This document shows, one piece after another, positions 53,944-60,908 of a stretch of DNA of 64,000 nucleotides. The position numbers were made by a program, and so were the translations under genes. The stretch covers positions 62,001-126,000 of the forward strand of contig JAEEIA010000053.1 of assembly GCA_016281125.1 (NCBI GenBank), read 5' to 3'. The notes under the pieces were generated by a model. That model saw nothing but the letters and a program-made list of their open reading frames with translations, was not told the DNA's origin and searched no databases. Numbering within the stretch: position 1 is the first letter of the stretch; each line of letters begins with the position of its first letter. The DNA comes from Oscillospiraceae bacterium. Lineage in GTDB: Bacteria > Bacillota > Clostridia > Oscillospirales > Ruminococcaceae.

Positions 53944-53972
53944 TTGAAAATCATATGAAACTATGCTATAAT
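53944..53972 (+). promoter_or_regulatory. Promoter of the leucine-rich repeat gene
   Basis: TTGAAA, 17 bp and TATAAT end 51 bp before the start codon. Confidence 0.78.
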
Positions 53973-54023
53973 GATTATAATGCAACCAATAGGCATCATT
54001 ATCATTTTTCAGGAGGCGCGGCT

Positions 54024-57000
54024 ATGGGATTCAAAATTAAAAACGGCGTTTTGCTGAAATATGAAGGTGTCAGCGCGCTGGAAAAGCTCGGCATCCGCAA
54101 GCAGGATGAAACCCTTGCGGTGCCGAAAAATGTAACGGCAATCGCGGATGAAGCGTTTTCGATGACGGAGGTCAGCAGCATTTTCCTGCCGCCTTCGGTC
54201 ACGCAGATCGGGGAGCGCGCCTTTGCGCTCTGTGCGGATTTGCAGCATGTTGAGTTTTCCGAGGGCCTGCGGGAGATCGGCACGAATGCCTTTGACGGCT
54301 GCCATGTGCTCCGCACGGCCAAGCTGCCGGATACCTGCACGGCAATCGGTGCATGGGCATTCTGCAACTGCGGCGGCCTGCGGTCGCTGCGGCTCTCTGA
54401 GAAAATGGAGGCGATCCCCCGCGGAGCGTTCTCCGGCTGCTCCAGATTAGAGGAAATCACTGTGCCGGCCGGCGTCGAGCACATCGACAACCGCGCATTC
54501 TATGCGTGTACCTCGCTCGTGAATGTGAAGCTCTCCAAGGGACTGCGCACCATCGGACGCGAGGCGTTTGCGTGCTGTTCCTCGATGAAGGCGATCTATA
54601 TTCCCGAAACCGTCACCGAAATTGCGGAGGACGCGTTTGCGGGCTGTACAGAGCTCAAGACTGTGATTATCCCGCCGTCTGTGACCAAGCTCCACCCCTA
54701 TGCATTCGGCTCGGAGAACCATATCCAGACGATCACGACCGTGACGGGCAGCGCTGCACATCAGTTTGCAGTCGACAACGGCATTTTCTGCTATACCGAA
54801 AAGGAAGCGGCCAAGCTGCGCGGCTGCAACCCTTCCTTTTTCATTGAATACGGCATCCTGAAAAAATATACGCAGGAATACAACGTGCGGGATATCATGG
54901 TGCCGGAGGGAACCATCTGCATCGGCAAGCACGCGTTCGAGCAGAACCGTCAGCTTGTCAGCGTCGTCATTCCGGAGGGCGTTGTGGAGATCAGCAGCTA
55001 TGCGTTCAACGGCTGCCGCAGTCTTCAGCGGGTCTATCTGCCCACCACGCTCCGGACAATCGGCCGGTTTGCGTTCCGGGACTGCCCGCTGCTGGAGGTC
55101 ATCCTGCCGCAGGGGATTGAGGTCGTGGAAAAGAACGCATTCCAGGGCTGCACAACCATGCGCAGATTCTATATGCCGGATACGCTGAAGGTGCTTGACA
55201 ACGAGGCGCTGCGTGACTGCATGTCCCTGAGCGAGCTGCGGTTCTCCGCCAGCCTCGAATCCGTCAGCGAAGGCGTCTGCGTGGGCTGCTCGTCGCTGCG
55301 CACTGTCGTCATTCCGGAGGGGCCGCGCTATATCCAGCAGAATGCGTTCCGCGGATGCAGCAGCCTTTCGGAGGCGTTTATACCGGACAGCGTTTCTGAG
55401 GTTTCCGGCAATGCCTTTGCCGATACCCCGCTGTTCAAAATGACTGCCGGTCATTATATCGTCGGCAGATTCCTGATTAAAGCGGACGGATACAGCCCAA
55501 TTCCGGTCGGCGTTCACCGCATCGGCCCGCGTGCCTTTGAGCGCGGCGGACTGCGGCAGGCCGTCATTCCGGAGGGCGTCATCAGCATCGGCGATCAGGC
55601 GTTCGCAAACTGCGGCGTCCTGACGGATGTGGTGATCCCGAAAACCGTGACGGAAATCGGCGTGGATGCGTTTGCATATACGCCGTGGATGACGCGCCGC
55701 ACGGAGCCGTTTACCATCGCAGGCGCAAATATTCTGCTGCATGCAAGTGTCACGACGCCGACGGTGAACATTCCGGTCGGTGTCCGCTGCATTGCGCCCT
55801 CGGCGTTTTCGCAGCTGCCCGCCAGACATATCGTGATTCCCGAAGGCGTCACGCATATCCAGCACGGTGCATTTTCGTACTGCGAACAGCTGGAAACCGT
55901 TGAGCTGCCCTCGACGCTGCGCCGCCTGGACGGATACATGTTCCACGGCTGCACCAAACTGACAAAGGTGCTGTTCCGCGGCGGCCCGGAAAAGGTCGGC
56001 CACGCGATGTTCAGCAGCTGTCTGTCACTGAAAACGGTCACGCTGCCGGATACAATCCGGGAGATTGACAATGAAGCATTTTATCATGCAGGCATTGAGA
56101 AAATCGTGATTCCGGACGGTGTCACGCGCATCGGACAGTCTGCATTCAGCCACTGCGACCGCCTGACGGATATTGCGATTCCCGCCTCCGTGACGGAAAT
56201 CAGCGAGAACGCATTCACAGAATGCCCGAAGTTCCGCGTCCATGCGGATCCCGGCAGCTACGCAGAGCGCTATGCCAAGCAGCATCACATGATGATGACG
56301 CTTGTGCCGATGAATATGTCCGTATTTGCGGAGGAACCCGAGGAACAGCTGTTGCAGCAGGATGTGCCGGAGCAGCGGAGAGCCGCCGCCGGCGTACCGG
56401 CAAGCACAGATCCCGCATTCCTCTGGGAGCAGCCCAAGCCGGAACCAGCAGCGGCAGAATCCGAAGCGGCCGCACTGCAGCAGACGGAAGCCGTTCCGGA
56501 AGCAGCGCAGGCCGAATCGGCTGCGGAACAGTCTGCTGCCGAAGAAAAGCCTGCAAAGCGGCCTGAAAAGGAAAAGCCCGCGAAGAAGCAGGCCGAGCAG
56601 AAGCCGGATGCAGATCAGCAACCGGAGAAGAAATCTGCCGGAAAGAAGACCGCGGCGGACGAACAGCCGAAGGAGGCTGCTGCTGAGAAACCCGCAGAAC
56701 CCGTCACAGAGGAGCAGTCTGCGACGAAGAAGCGGAGCAAGACCGTCACCTTTGACGAGGAAGAGGAGCAGAACTACGCCGAGCGGATCAAGCGCGAGCT
56801 GGAAACGGCGCGCAAGAAGTCCGTCACGGCGGATCCGAAGGCCAAGCTGCCGAAGCTCGAGCTGGAGGAGGAGCCTGCACCTGCGCCGGAAAAGCCGAAG
56901 CGCCGCAAGAAGAAGGAGCTGACCGAGGAGGAACGCGAGCTGAAACTGCGCGCAAAGGAAACGCCGGAGGAAACCAAGGCGCGTCACCGCGCAAAGCTGC

Positions 57001-57353
57001 TGGACGATCTGCCCGATCTGCCGCCGGAGCCGAAGAAGCCGCGCCCTGTCGCGGAGCCGCTGCCGGAGGAGATCAAATTGCAGCTGCCGCCGGAGGCGAT
57101 CCAGACGGAGCCGAAAAAGGAGCCGGTCAGCAAACTGCCGGACATTCCGGAGCTGCCGCGCAGACCGAAGCCCGCAAGGACGATTCGCCTGGATATTCCG
57201 ATGATCGACGAGGTCAAGCCGATCGAGGTACCGAAGGCAGACGAGGGCAAACCGCCTGTGCTGTCCAACCCGGCGGAGCAGGAGAAGGATCCGTTTGCGG
57301 ATGCCGATATCCACTGGAACAGCGATCAGACGACTTTCACGATCCGGTTCTGA
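54024..57353 (+). CDS. Cytoplasmic BspA-like leucine-rich repeat protein with charged C-terminal tail
   Basis: This 1109-residue protein has no signal peptide and no membrane segment. Residues about 25-760 are LRR_5 (BspA-type) repeats of roughly 23 residues in several blocks (for example VTEIAEDAFAGCTELKTVII). From about 790 it becomes a low-complexity Pro/Glu/Lys/Ala tail with strongly basic and acidic runs, ending in HWNSDQTTFTIRF. BspA-type repeats are usually found in secreted or surface proteins, so the absence of an export signal is unusual. AGGAGGCG precedes the ATG. It is monocistronic, with a terminator. Confidence 0.88.
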   Translation: MGFKIKNGVLLKYEGVSALEKLGIRKQDETLAVPKNVTAIADEAFSMTEVSSIFLPPSVTQIGERAFALCADLQHVEFSEGLREIGTNAFDGCHVLRTAKLPDTCTAIGAWAFCNCGGLRSLRLSEKMEAIPRGAFSGCSRLEEITVPAGVEHIDNRAFYACTSLVNVKLSKGLRTIGREAFACCSSMKAIYIPETVTEIAEDAFAGCTELKTVIIPPSVTKLHPYAFGSENHIQTITTVTGSAAHQFAVDNGIFCYTEKEAAKLRGCNPSFFIEYGILKKYTQEYNVRDIMVPEGTICIGKHAFEQNRQLVSVVIPEGVVEISSYAFNGCRSLQRVYLPTTLRTIGRFAFRDCPLLEVILPQGIEVVEKNAFQGCTTMRRFYMPDTLKVLDNEALRDCMSLSELRFSASLESVSEGVCVGCSSLRTVVIPEGPRYIQQNAFRGCSSLSEAFIPDSVSEVSGNAFADTPLFKMTAGHYIVGRFLIKADGYSPIPVGVHRIGPRAFERGGLRQAVIPEGVISIGDQAFANCGVLTDVVIPKTVTEIGVDAFAYTPWMTRRTEPFTIAGANILLHASVTTPTVNIPVGVRCIAPSAFSQLPARHIVIPEGVTHIQHGAFSYCEQLETVELPSTLRRLDGYMFHGCTKLTKVLFRGGPEKVGHAMFSSCLSLKTVTLPDTIREIDNEAFYHAGIEKIVIPDGVTRIGQSAFSHCDRLTDIAIPASVTEISENAFTECPKFRVHADPGSYAERYAKQHHMMMTLVPMNMSVFAEEPEEQLLQQDVPEQRRAAAGVPASTDPAFLWEQPKPEPAAAESEAAALQQTEAVPEAAQAESAAEQSAAEEKPAKRPEKEKPAKKQAEQKPDADQQPEKKSAGKKTAADEQPKEAAAEKPAEPVTEEQSATKKRSKTVTFDEEEEQNYAERIKRELETARKKSVTADPKAKLPKLELEEEPAPAPEKPKRRKKKELTEEERELKLRAKETPEETKARHRAKLLDDLPDLPPEPKKPRPVAEPLPEEIKLQLPPEAIQTEPKKEPVSKLPDIPELPRRPKPARTIRLDIPMIDEVKPIEVPKADEGKPPVLSNPAEQEKDPFADADIHWNSDQTTFTIRF

Positions 57354-57543: not shown

Positions 57544-60012
57544 TCAGTCGTCCTTCTTTGCCGGTGCGAGCATTCCGCGGTAAGCAGCTGCATAGTCATC
57601 ACGTCCGAGCGGCTCGCTGTGCAGATCCTTCAGCGGGGTAACCTTTCTGCGGCAGATGTCAGCAGAATCCCAGCCGAGGCCTTCCTTCATCGCAACAGTG
57701 ATGTGCGTGTAGTACTTCAGGATGCCCTGTGCATCTTCAACGGTGATCTCGCCGTCGTTGTTGCCGTTCGCATCGCCCCAGACGTCCATTGCATAATGCA
57801 TGAACGGCAGGCATGCCTTTGCATTTTCGGCATCACCAAATGCCTTCTTAATGGCCTTCATGTCGAAGAACCAGTCACCAACATCCTTCTTTGCAACTCT
57901 GACGTGCGTGTAGTAGAGAAGTGCGAGCTGTGCGTCATCAACGCTGACCTCACCGTCGAGGTCGGAGTCGCCGCGGAGAACGAGGTAAACGGAGAACTTG
58001 CCTGCTTCCAGACCGTTCTTGATGCCTGCTTCTTCGATGAGCTCATCGCCGTAGCCTGCATCGCGGATTGCCTGCTTCACAGCGTCCTCATCGGTCAGCT
58101 TGAAGTAAACAGACTTGATGGTCATGCCAGTACCCTGCGGCATTTCCAGATCAGCCGGCTTCAGAGCATCCGGCTTGAATGCGTCGGTGACATCCTTGGT
58201 CTTGAGAACCTGCTCGATGCCGCCCTCATAGAAGTGCAGGGAAACGCTCAGGTTGGAGAGGTCGAATTCAGTTTCTTCCTCGGACCAGAAGACCATACCC
58301 TCATCCTTGACACCGTCAAACTCGAAGGAGATGTAGGTGGCAGCAGTGGTGGTGGTCGGTTCCGGTGTGGTGATCGGCGTGGTGGAGGTTACAGGAGCCG
58401 GAGTGGTTTCGCTCACCGGAGTGGTTTCGCTCACCGGAGTGGTTTCGCTCACCGGAGTGGTTTCGCTCACCGGAGTGGTAGAGGTGCCCTGAGCCGGCGT
58501 GGTATCGCTGCCCTCAGGCGGAGTGGTCTGAACCGGAGTCGTTACACTGCCCTCAGCCGGCGTGGTGTCGCTTGCCGGTACGGTAGTGTCTTCCGGATTC
58601 GTGGTCGTCGTAACCGTGGTCGTGGTGGACTCAGATGCTACTGCGGTGGTCGTGGTGACAGCCGGAGTGGTGTCGGTCACGACTTCGATGATACGCTCGA
58701 CATCGAAGAATGCGCTGCCGCTCATGCCGTAATCGGACTCAGCGGAAGCAGTCAGCTTCTTGGAGGACTTGATTTCCTTAATGGTGTAGCCCTCTGCCAG
58801 CCATTTTGCCTCGTACTTGTCGCGGATGGCCTGTGCGACTTCGTCAGCCTTGTCATCCTCAAGCGTCAGGATTGCCTTTGCGGAGTAGCCGTCGATGGAA
58901 TACTCAGCGCTGGTTGCCTTATCGGTAATTTCCTTGATGCTATTCTTGCCGGTGAGCGGAATGGTAACATTCACATACTCGCCGTAATTGCTGTTGATGA
59001 ATTCGACAGCCTTATCGTAGCCCTTCTGGACACGCTCGTCTTCCCAGAACTGGGAAACCGTAGCCGGCTTCTTCTCCTCGAACTTGCTGATGACCTTATC
59101 AGCGTACTTTTCCGGAGCGCCGACACCCTTTGCAGCCTCAACGAGCTTCTCGGTGTAGTCGGTGTAGAGCGTATCGAGATCGGATGCGGAAGCGCTCAGT
59201 GCCTTCACAGCCTCGATCATCTTAGCAACACAGCTCTCGCCGTCCTTTGCCTTCTTGACGTACTTGTCCAGCTTATCGTTGAACTTTGCGGTGTTGCCGC
59301 CGTTCTTTGCAGCAGCATCCTTCAGGAGCTGTGCAGCCTCATCGAGCTTTGCGAGGACATATTCCTCAACAGCCTTGTAGTCGGTGTAGGTCTTCCCCTT
59401 GTCATCGGTCAGGGTGATCTTGTAGGAAACAGTCTTTGCCTCAGCATCGAACTTGGCATCAACCAGAACCTTGCAGCTCAGGTTGAACTTCGTCCAGTCA
59501 GCCTTGACCGGCTTGCCGCCGACCGTGCCTTCCTTGCCGCCGTTCTGGATGCGCATTTCCTGCTCGATCAGAGCGCCTGCGATCTCGCCGATGTTTGCAA
59601 TCTCGAATTCAGCCTTGCCGGTGCCGTCGCTGTTGACAGTGATCTTTGCCGGGGAAACAGCTGCGAGAAGATCGTCTGCCGTAGCAGAGTCGATGCGGTC
59701 AGACTTCAGCATCGCTTTCTTTGCGTACTTCTTGCCCTGTTCAAGAGCAACCGTGAAGCTCTTGTCGCCAGCTGCCAGCAGGGCAGCTTCAGCTTTGTCG
59801 TTCCAGTCGGAATGCAGACCGACCAGCGGATCTTCTTCATTCAGCGGGACGAACAGAACACGCTCCTGATCGACAACGATCGGGAATTTCGTTTCAGACT
59901 CTGTTCCTTCCGCTGCGCTGATGTTCAAGTTTGCTGCGACAGCGGAAAGCTGGCTCAGCACGAGAATCGAACTGGAAGCGGCTGCAAGTGTACGCTTGAA
60001 AATTGATTTCAT
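57544..60012 (-). CDS. Large secreted dockerin protein
   Basis: This 822-residue protein has a signal peptide (residues about 1-34) and a helix-rich Lys/Ala/Asp region (about 35-440) of no recognised family. A Thr/Ser/Pro/Glu linker with TTPVSE repeats follows (about 455-560), then a beta-domain (TYISFEFDGVKDEGMVFWSE), an X-module-like stretch (DEDAVKQAIRDAGYGDELIE) and a dockerin. Its two calcium loops (GDSDLDGEVSVDDAQLALLY and GDANGNNDGEITVEDAQGIL) are separated by an unusually long insert (about 60 residues). It may be a structural cellulosome or cell-surface component. AAGGAGAGG precedes the ATG. Confidence 0.85.
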   Translation of the reverse strand: MKSIFKRTLAAASSSILVLSQLSAVAANLNISAAEGTESETKFPIVVDQERVLFVPLNEEDPLVGLHSDWNDKAEAALLAAGDKSFTVALEQGKKYAKKAMLKSDRIDSATADDLLAAVSPAKITVNSDGTGKAEFEIANIGEIAGALIEQEMRIQNGGKEGTVGGKPVKADWTKFNLSCKVLVDAKFDAEAKTVSYKITLTDDKGKTYTDYKAVEEYVLAKLDEAAQLLKDAAAKNGGNTAKFNDKLDKYVKKAKDGESCVAKMIEAVKALSASASDLDTLYTDYTEKLVEAAKGVGAPEKYADKVISKFEEKKPATVSQFWEDERVQKGYDKAVEFINSNYGEYVNVTIPLTGKNSIKEITDKATSAEYSIDGYSAKAILTLEDDKADEVAQAIRDKYEAKWLAEGYTIKEIKSSKKLTASAESDYGMSGSAFFDVERIIEVVTDTTPAVTTTTAVASESTTTTVTTTTNPEDTTVPASDTTPAEGSVTTPVQTTPPEGSDTTPAQGTSTTPVSETTPVSETTPVSETTPVSETTPAPVTSTTPITTPEPTTTTAATYISFEFDGVKDEGMVFWSEEETEFDLSNLSVSLHFYEGGIEQVLKTKDVTDAFKPDALKPADLEMPQGTGMTIKSVYFKLTDEDAVKQAIRDAGYGDELIEEAGIKNGLEAGKFSVYLVLRGDSDLDGEVSVDDAQLALLYYTHVRVAKKDVGDWFFDMKAIKKAFGDAENAKACLPFMHYAMDVWGDANGNNDGEITVEDAQGILKYYTHITVAMKEGLGWDSADICRRKVTPLKDLHSEPLGRDDYAAAYRGMLAPAKKDD
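58398..58478 (-). repeat. 18-bp tandem repeats in the dockerin-protein linker
   Basis: CCGGAGTGGTTTCGCTCA is repeated four times without change (58398, 58416, 58434, 58452), plus a partial fifth. In frame it encodes the six-residue unit TTPVSE. Copy number could vary by slippage without breaking the frame. Confidence 0.92.
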
Positions 60013-60132
60013 TCTAACCTCTCCTTTGTTATAATGGATTATGTACGGAATGTGTCACAGATCCGTGTTCAAAGCGGGTCGTACAGCCTGATTTCGATCC
60101 TCTTGCGTACTGGGACACATATACATACTGCC

Positions 60133-60161
60133 ATTATAGCATTATTCTCCGAAAATTGCAA
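60133..60161 (-). promoter_or_regulatory. Promoter of the large dockerin gene
   Basis: On the minus strand TTGCAA, 17 bp and TATAAT, leaving a leader of about 115 nt. Confidence 0.78.
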
Positions 60162-60380: not shown

Positions 60381-60409
60381 TTGACAAACCAGAAATTATG
60401 TGCTATAAT
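60381..60409 (+). promoter_or_regulatory. Consensus promoter of the 60.4-kb transcript
   Basis: TTGACA (60381-60386), a 17-bp spacer and TATAAT (60404-60409) form a perfect consensus, yet no ordinary gene follows before the terminator at 60822. Confidence 0.9.
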
Positions 60410-60495
60410 ACAGACAAGAAAAGAACAGAAACACCAGACAGAACAGGAGGCGTTCCCAATGGGCTAACAGCATAAATCGCAATCAAGAATCAAAG

Positions 60496-60762
60496 AAAGG
60501 ATGTGCTTCCGATGCAGAGGTACAGCGGCGGTTGAATACCGCGAAGGAGACAATTAACAAATGTATGAACCAAATAGCCAAAAGGATGTGTTTCCGATGC
60601 AGAGTTCAATGAGCGGATAAAATCATTTACTGATCGGGTCGATCAATATCAGGATGCCAAAATCAAGCAGAAGGATGTGTTACCGATGTACAGGTAAGCG
60701 TGTTCGCAAGAGGCGGATAACAGCAGGAAAATCTGAGAAGAAAGGAAGTGCTACCGATGCCG
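60496..60762 (+). repeat. Four irregularly spaced direct repeats in the 60.4-kb transcript
   Basis: Units start at 60496, 60581, 60670 and 60741 and share about 20-24 bases (AAAGGATGTG, then YTWCCGATGCAGAG). Copies 1 and 2 are closest; copies 3 and 4 diverge. The sequences between them are unrelated except for a recurring GCGGATAA-like tail about 20-45 nt after each unit. Confidence 0.85.
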
Positions 60763-60821
60763 TGCTCCCATAGACAGCACAGCGGCCGATATGGTATAGG
60801 TCGGAAGCCGTGCGGTGAATC

Positions 60822-60870
60822 AAAAAGCTGACGACACTGTCACCCGTGCAGACAGTGTCGTCGCTTTTTT
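60822..60870 (+). terminator. Terminator of the 60.4-kb transcript
   Basis: GACGACACTGTC pairs perfectly with GACAGTGTCGTC around a 9-nt loop; AAAAAGC before and GCTTTTTT after extend the stem and supply the U-run. Confidence 0.95.
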
Positions 60871-60908
60871 ATAGTATTGCGCTCCGGCACACCGGGGCTT
60901 TTTGCTGC

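Follow-up and report, generated by a model that had tools for sequence, protein, structure and literature searches.

The closest described counterparts of the locus reported here are the bacterial minigenes, of which phage lambda bar is one. These have a ribosome-binding site, a start and a stop within a few codons, and they work through ribosome occupancy or drop-off rather than through a protein. As reported in one paper, ribosome occupancy at a strong ribosome-binding site protects the RNA that carries the six-codon LEE4 minigene, and the authors suggest the same protection for the two-codon minigene (mg2) of axe-txe; the axe-txe mg2, LEE1 and LEE4 mini-ORFs appear there as leader elements that act on a downstream gene (PMC8708949). 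The locus studied here shares the basic plan, but two to six such units stand in tandem and account for the greater part of an RNA that has its own promoter and terminator and is kept throughout a genus. Moreover, where the precedents described there act in cis on a downstream gene, the array in the window (the whole 64,000-nt stretch of Oscillospiraceae DNA that was analyzed) has no such gene.

CsrB and RsmZ are terminated, stand-alone sponge RNAs with tandem GGA units. The array RNA likewise carries tandem GGA-containing units and is terminated and stand-alone; it differs in that its units have an AUG and in-frame stops and in that it belongs to a genus in which no CsrA was found. Dual-function sRNAs such as RNAIII and SgrS encode a conserved peptide, and they have in common with the array the combination of short ORFs with a structured part, but in the array the peptides drift while start and stop stay, and unit 2 has no conserved peptide. 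Leader-peptide attenuators of the trpL and ermC type also place short ORFs beside hairpins, whereas no conserved same-strand gene that could be regulated lies downstream of the array in the 19 loci compared. The Gram-positive sRNAs RsaA and RNAIII are reported to have C-rich sequences that pair with Shine-Dalgarno (SD) regions, and the array RNA is similar in having a 3' hairpin with a fixed C-rich loop; here the loop is CCCGUG(CA), the putative acting part. Among the top matches of a full-text search of open-licence papers there was no description of such an RNA.

In the window, about 455 nt lie between a sigma-A promoter (60381) and a terminator (60822-60870), and five units, each with an SD sequence, an ATG and a micro-ORF, lie inside (Table 1). 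The preliminary description of this stretch had proposed this framing and five AGGA-N10-ATG units, and both are borne out by the promoter hexamer and its spacer, the terminator arms and T run, and the ORFs listed in the table. The 19-mer that it quoted, AAAGGATGTGYTWCCGATG, is exact in units 2 and 3, but unit 4 has GAAGGATG... and unit 5 has GGAAGTG. A degenerate 18-mer, AARGAWGTGYTWCCGATG, matches four times in the 3.9 Mb genome, always in the array and on the same strand, with no match on the opposite strand and none in a reversed control. The K-D/E-V-L/F-P-M series that had been read in the same frame of the units is a property of this 18-mer, but it belongs to no protein, and successive ATGs use all three frames in the 28 relatives that carry the RNA. 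The relatives have a comparable promoter 5' of their RNA. For the RNA as a whole, structure prediction gives a fold somewhat more stable than those of shuffled sequences (z -2.35, 0/100 shuffles as stable), and a comparison of the RNA with Rfam 15 gave no match at the gathering score and none up to E = 1.

Table 1 Positions of the array RNA, its parts and its neighbors in the window
Feature	Position	Strand	Details
BspA-type leucine-rich-repeat protein	53955-57353	+	adjoins divergent gene
Divergent gene, secreted-looking protein	57544-60012	-	822 aa; beside RNA
Leader of divergent gene	60013-60150	-	possibly a regulatory leader
Sigma-A promoter	60381-60409	+	TTGACA (60381-60386)-17-TATAAT, extended -10 (TGC); TGCTATAAT ends at 60409
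Unit 1	60446-60467	+	GGAGGCGTTCCCA then ATG (60459) GGC TAA = MG*
Unit 2	60499-60535	+	SD; ATG at 60512; MQRYSGG*; stop TGA 60533-60535
Unit 2 start hairpin	60503-60523	+	stem 60503-60509/60517-60523; start codon in loop 60510-60516
Unit 2 stop hairpin	60528-60542	+	stem GCGGT/ACCGC; stop codon in loop 60533-60537
Unit 3	60584-60620	+	ATG at 60597; MQSSMSG*
Unit 4	60673-60697	+	ATG at 60686; MYR*
Unit 5 (last)	60744-60831	+	ATG at 60757; 24 codons (24-mer); TGA
Hairpin at RTGGTATAG motif site	60786-60804	+	ATGGTATAG in loop
3' hairpin and terminator	60822-60872	+	arms 60822-60841 and 60851-60870; loop 60842-60850, ACCCGTGCA; T run after

The RNA is present in 28 of 30 same-genus genomes, a count that draws on a nucleotide search, a model of unit 2, pattern searches and inspection of the fetched stretches. 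In genome G002 the RNA would be cut off because the neighboring gene begins at base 130 of the contig, and in genome G011 (75% complete) neither the RNA nor an orthologue of the neighboring gene was found. Related genomes are counted separately here unless dereplication is stated; regions L037, L045, L046, L117 and L121-L125 were taken as array-free and left out of the counts, and one spurious relaxed-pattern match in L038 was dropped. We also note, in genome G010 (L122:549-570), a unit-like start (GGATGTGATTCCAATGGGCTGA, MG*) shortly 5' of an apparent protein gene elsewhere in the genome. At E 0.01 the unit 2 model matched 21 of the 30 genomes of the genus, and in the nucleotide search of 61 relatives strong matches were confined to the genus, the best elsewhere having E 0.002. 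When 396 genomes of the family (7 from this genus, 389 from outside it) were scanned with the exact pattern, no tandem cluster appeared outside the genus; all outside-genus genomes with at least two same-strand matches were checked by position, and in none were two matches close together. The 18-mer AAGGATGTGYTTCCGATG identified 35 stretches in genome contigs, 16 with at least two units and 19 with single matches (15 preceding open frames of at least 41 codons, 4 preceding frames of 7-17 codons); the same search of viral contigs gave no match, and phages gave short chance matches only. The named records that carry the array represent metagenome-assembled Oscillospiraceae, Clostridiales or Ruminococcus sp., and the titles of several give rumen, omasum, rectum or horse faeces as the source; the bacteria that appear to make the RNA are an uncultured gut group. 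Conservation of the repeats in homologues, on which the preliminary description had staked its case, is what was found.

The most regular property of the units is their punctuation. The pre-start motif GG[AG]NG[TC]G-N2-3-N-C[CT], searched from the promoter onward until a gap of >160 nt and with no demand for an ATG, gave 88 copies in 23 loci, and ATG comes next in 88/88. Five further loci and a relaxed pattern bring the set to 107 units, with two to six in the RNA of each of the 28 genomes; since the relaxed pattern itself demands ATG, the statement that ATG always comes next rests on the 88. With a limit of 12 codons, which was our own choice, 78/79 non-last units have an in-frame stop, compared with 26/79 and 25/79 in the other two frames. 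The corresponding figures are 94/107 versus 32 and 41 for all units and 54/55 versus 22 and 19 for dereplicated non-last units (Fisher 4e-16), and with a limit of eight codons 66/79 non-last units have a stop, versus 15 and 9. The array therefore has the SD sequence, start and stop within a few codons that characterize a bacterial minigene. The stops of the 107 units are TGA (47), TAA (46) and TAG (14), and orthologous units exchange them, as in L006 and L007, where unit 1 has TAA and TGA and unit 2 has TAA and TAG, respectively. Three ORFs have one codon, 19 have two, 17 have three and 47 have 7-10; last units are often longer, ranging from 2 to 34 codons, with 24-34 codons in 10 of the 28 genomes. 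Successive starts are 51 to 143 nt apart and never <51, and their relative frames are distributed 27, 21 and 31 among 79 pairs, so that neighboring units have no common frame; a single-frame repeat protein was rejected on these grounds.

The encoded peptides do not follow suit. First units of the relatives read MG*, MGC*, MGR*, MGA*, MQ*, MW* or M*, with MGH... in three distant ones. Unit 2 often encodes MQKYxxG(x), and its constant MQKY coincides with the 3' arm of a hairpin formed with the spacer GTGCTTC. In equal-length pairs among 17 orthologous unit 2 ORFs, differences are flat over the three codon positions (114/108/102), and we conclude from this that the unit 2 peptide is not conserved; codons with a single change include 40 synonymous and 58 nonsynonymous cases, related pairs being counted many times. 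In units 3 and 4 some pairs of near relatives differ freely and others little, and examples from units of near relatives are MCRTARFQDN versus MCTTARYVTD and MQKVYISK versus MQRYIIT. These comparisons support the view that the units are selected for initiation and prompt termination and that their peptides are not, and the RNA, as judged from its sequence, seems built for ribosome visits rather than for protein coding. The array of micro-ORFs put forward in the preliminary description is thus strongly supported by the frame-specific early stops found across the genus, but as a set of start and stop elements and not as a set of peptides.

As a ribosome-binding site, a typical unit, AGAAAGGATGTG, deviates at only 1 of 12 positions from AGAAAGGAGGTG, which we take to be the anti-SD complement; the match is extended yet interrupted, typically AAAGGA-N-GUG, and a fixed CCR stands before the AUG. 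Over 15 positions in the best register the units have a mean match of 10.2, compared with 8.5 in 97 ordinary gene starts (picked by script from 19 loci and possibly including some false ORFs), whereas the longest exact run has a mean of 6.2 in the units and 6.5 in the ordinary starts, which makes the sites extended without being exceptionally strong when measured by exact run. CC occurs at -3/-2 in 107/107 units and 3/97 ordinary starts, a contrast that is partly built in because the unit-finding patterns asked for C[CT] there, and GYG at -9 to -7, which is fixed in the units, occurs in 6/97. A GGA...UCC mini-hairpin 5' of the ATG was considered and discarded, as positions -11/-4 show no covariation (A-T 60, A-A 20, G-T 16, G-A 6).

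In unit 2 two successive hairpins hold the start codon and the stop codon, respectively, in their loops, and the GGA lies 5' of the hairpin and not in its loop (the other units have no settled fold). For the stop hairpin the native arms give -8.5 kcal/mol and swapped arms -5.6, with 0/300 swaps as good, in a set of 18 units that includes one last unit (of L039) with an identical start sequence. For the start hairpin of unit 2, swaps and covariation say little because the sequence hardly varies between orthologues. When all 107 units are taken together 0/300 swaps are as good for the start hairpin, but without units 1 and 2 this rises to 12/300, and to 50/300 after dereplication (7/300 and 6/300, respectively, for the stop hairpin). 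The AUG-in-loop hairpin was therefore dropped as a rule for every unit and kept for unit 2 only, and in the other units the start- and stop-in-loop arrangement appears weakly supported or not supported.

The 3' hairpin, which was located via the CCCGTG hexamer itself, has this loop core in 27 of 28 RNAs and TTCGTG in the remaining one. Its stem varies yet pairs, with 96% pairing in native arms versus a mean of 79% and a maximum of 84% for arms exchanged between genomes with the register fitted anew, and 95% versus 60% when the register is fitted to native arms only. The hairpin thus appears to covary and is supported as a structure by these comparisons, and it has the conserved C-rich loop on a stable stem that is typical of C-rich-loop sRNAs. 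It lacks a directly following T run >3 in 9 of 28 relatives, so the end of the RNA is less certain there, and the CCCGTG loop may therefore serve more than termination. Elsewhere in this genome, the inspected matches to the 15-mer of this loop plus its own stem, two of them exact and one with a single mismatch, all lie in longer sequence and have no T run. RTGGTATAG is found in 10 of 28 RNAs; because the last ORF includes it in five cases and not in the other five, and because its stop (it reads start-GTA-stop) is unchanged in all ten, it looks like an RNA motif. The alternative of a structured RNA, also raised in the preliminary description, accordingly stands for unit 2 and the 3' CCCGUG-loop hairpin but not for most of the other units.

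The anatomy of the array is well supported, and from it we infer that the RNA is transcribed and translated and what its function would be. A plausible, though still tentative, reading is that a regulatory RNA, with its 3' hairpin as the acting part, is protected or gated by the ribosomes that occupy it. A stand-alone RNA of ~455 nt would carry tandem ribosome-binding sites, with each start promptly followed by a stop, and it would be kept covered by ribosomes, each unit (spacing 51 nt or more) holding one. Such cover would protect the RNA and/or hold its hairpins open, and the supply of initiating ribosomes would then be reflected in how much of the RNA there is or in what shape it takes. As the effector, the conserved 3' hairpin with its CCCGUG loop would act on a partner, either RNA or protein, and the RNA may share its regulation with the divergent secreted-protein gene. 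It is possible, if rather doubtful, that the array represents a new RNA class whose coding is under selection for its punctuation only, with tandem start-stop modules that load ribosomes onto an otherwise regulatory RNA and make it a gauge of translation initiation, and with start codons in hairpin loops, an AUG in that of unit 2 and an RUG in each of two 3' loops. If this is true, bacteria would employ the translation of serial, near-empty ORFs as one working part of a stand-alone RNA, and ribosome occupancy alone as a regulatory output becomes directly testable. The signature of frame-specific stops without peptide conservation could then be used to search for similar RNAs now filed as non-coding.

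An RNA of this kind might instead, if abundant, work in trans as a sink for ribosomes or initiator tRNA, tying up 30S subunits or making peptidyl-tRNA by drop-off and so lowering translation. The number of sites per RNA would suit such a sink, as would the many ORFs of one to three codons, the start codon in the unit 2 hairpin loop and the GUG in the 3' loop, and peptidyl-tRNA arising from minigenes is mentioned in the literature; but drop-off is less expected at 7-10 codons, the length of 47/107 units, a single-copy gene needs very strong expression to matter, and the fixed 3' loop is left unexplained. We consider a sink unlikely. The fixed GYG and CCR, which go beyond ordinary starts, the tandem copies, and the reappearance of WCC-N-RUG in the 3' loop as CCCGUG would all fit a sponge for an RNA-binding protein that recognizes GGRNGYGNNWCCRAUG, with translation secondary. 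Such a sponge predicts neither the frame-specific stops (78/79 versus 26 and 25) nor the exchange of three different stops, the GYG may equally be an SD extension, and the candidate protein CsrA was not found in the genus, which leaves this reading distinctly unlikely. The micro-peptides themselves are a quite improbable product, whether as signals, formyl-peptides or antimicrobials: start, SD and stop are kept and unit 2 often has its MQKY consensus, but unit 2 has no third-position bias, other units differ even between near relatives, some are merely M* or MG*, and MQKY can be explained by pairing with the spacer.

The CsrA form of a sponge, of the CsrB type, was suggested in the preliminary description by the resemblance of AAGGAUG to the CsrA core, together with a check for CsrA in the genome. 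That check found none: PF02599 is present in 0/30 same-genus genomes, only 13 of which have a completeness of 90% or more and a contamination of 5% or less; an identical search is positive in 5/31 more distant relatives and 3/14 control genomes. With no CsrA found in the genus, a CsrA/RsmA sponge has practically no probability left and is refuted, unless all the assemblies miss CsrA or a non-homologous CsrA exists. It is hardly more credible that the repeats are chance or decaying, functionless sequences; the intervening sequences do diverge fast, but position and grammar are kept in 28 genomes, with in-frame stops and compensatory stems.

The divergent gene beside the RNA has a counterpart in 27 of the 28 relatives that begins with a similar peptide (MK or MN...) and in most of them has a similar leader; for the remaining genome, G014, the script took another start, but a homologue of the gene is present there. 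The 822-aa protein has no Pfam match at E 0.01, and a search of 247 family genomes found its N-terminal part in four, which all belong to this genus and include the window's own. A dockerin domain suspected by eye at its end found no support in Pfam and PDB sequence searches and was rejected. Most of the genus shares a similar leader of this gene (TATGTATATGTGTC...GACACAT...CGTACATAATC), possibly a regulatory one, whose TATGTATATGTGTC/CGTACATAATC arms, ~100 nt before the start codon, can pair in many relatives. Pairing of the array RNA with this leader, the sole target tested and with five random swaps per locus, was rejected, as native pairs are no better than swapped ones (-9.0 versus -9.5 kcal/mol for the loop and -18.3 versus -18.5 for the units). 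On the other side of the array, the next gene in the window is on the minus strand, with no cis gene after the array, and downstream genes are not common to the 19 loci. A few families recur in two or three of them, and an exception is the leucine-rich-repeat family, which lies 3' of the array in L140. A BspA-type leucine-rich-repeat protein also adjoins the divergent gene in the window, and members of the BspA-type cluster lie near the RNA in 13 of the 19 loci compared.
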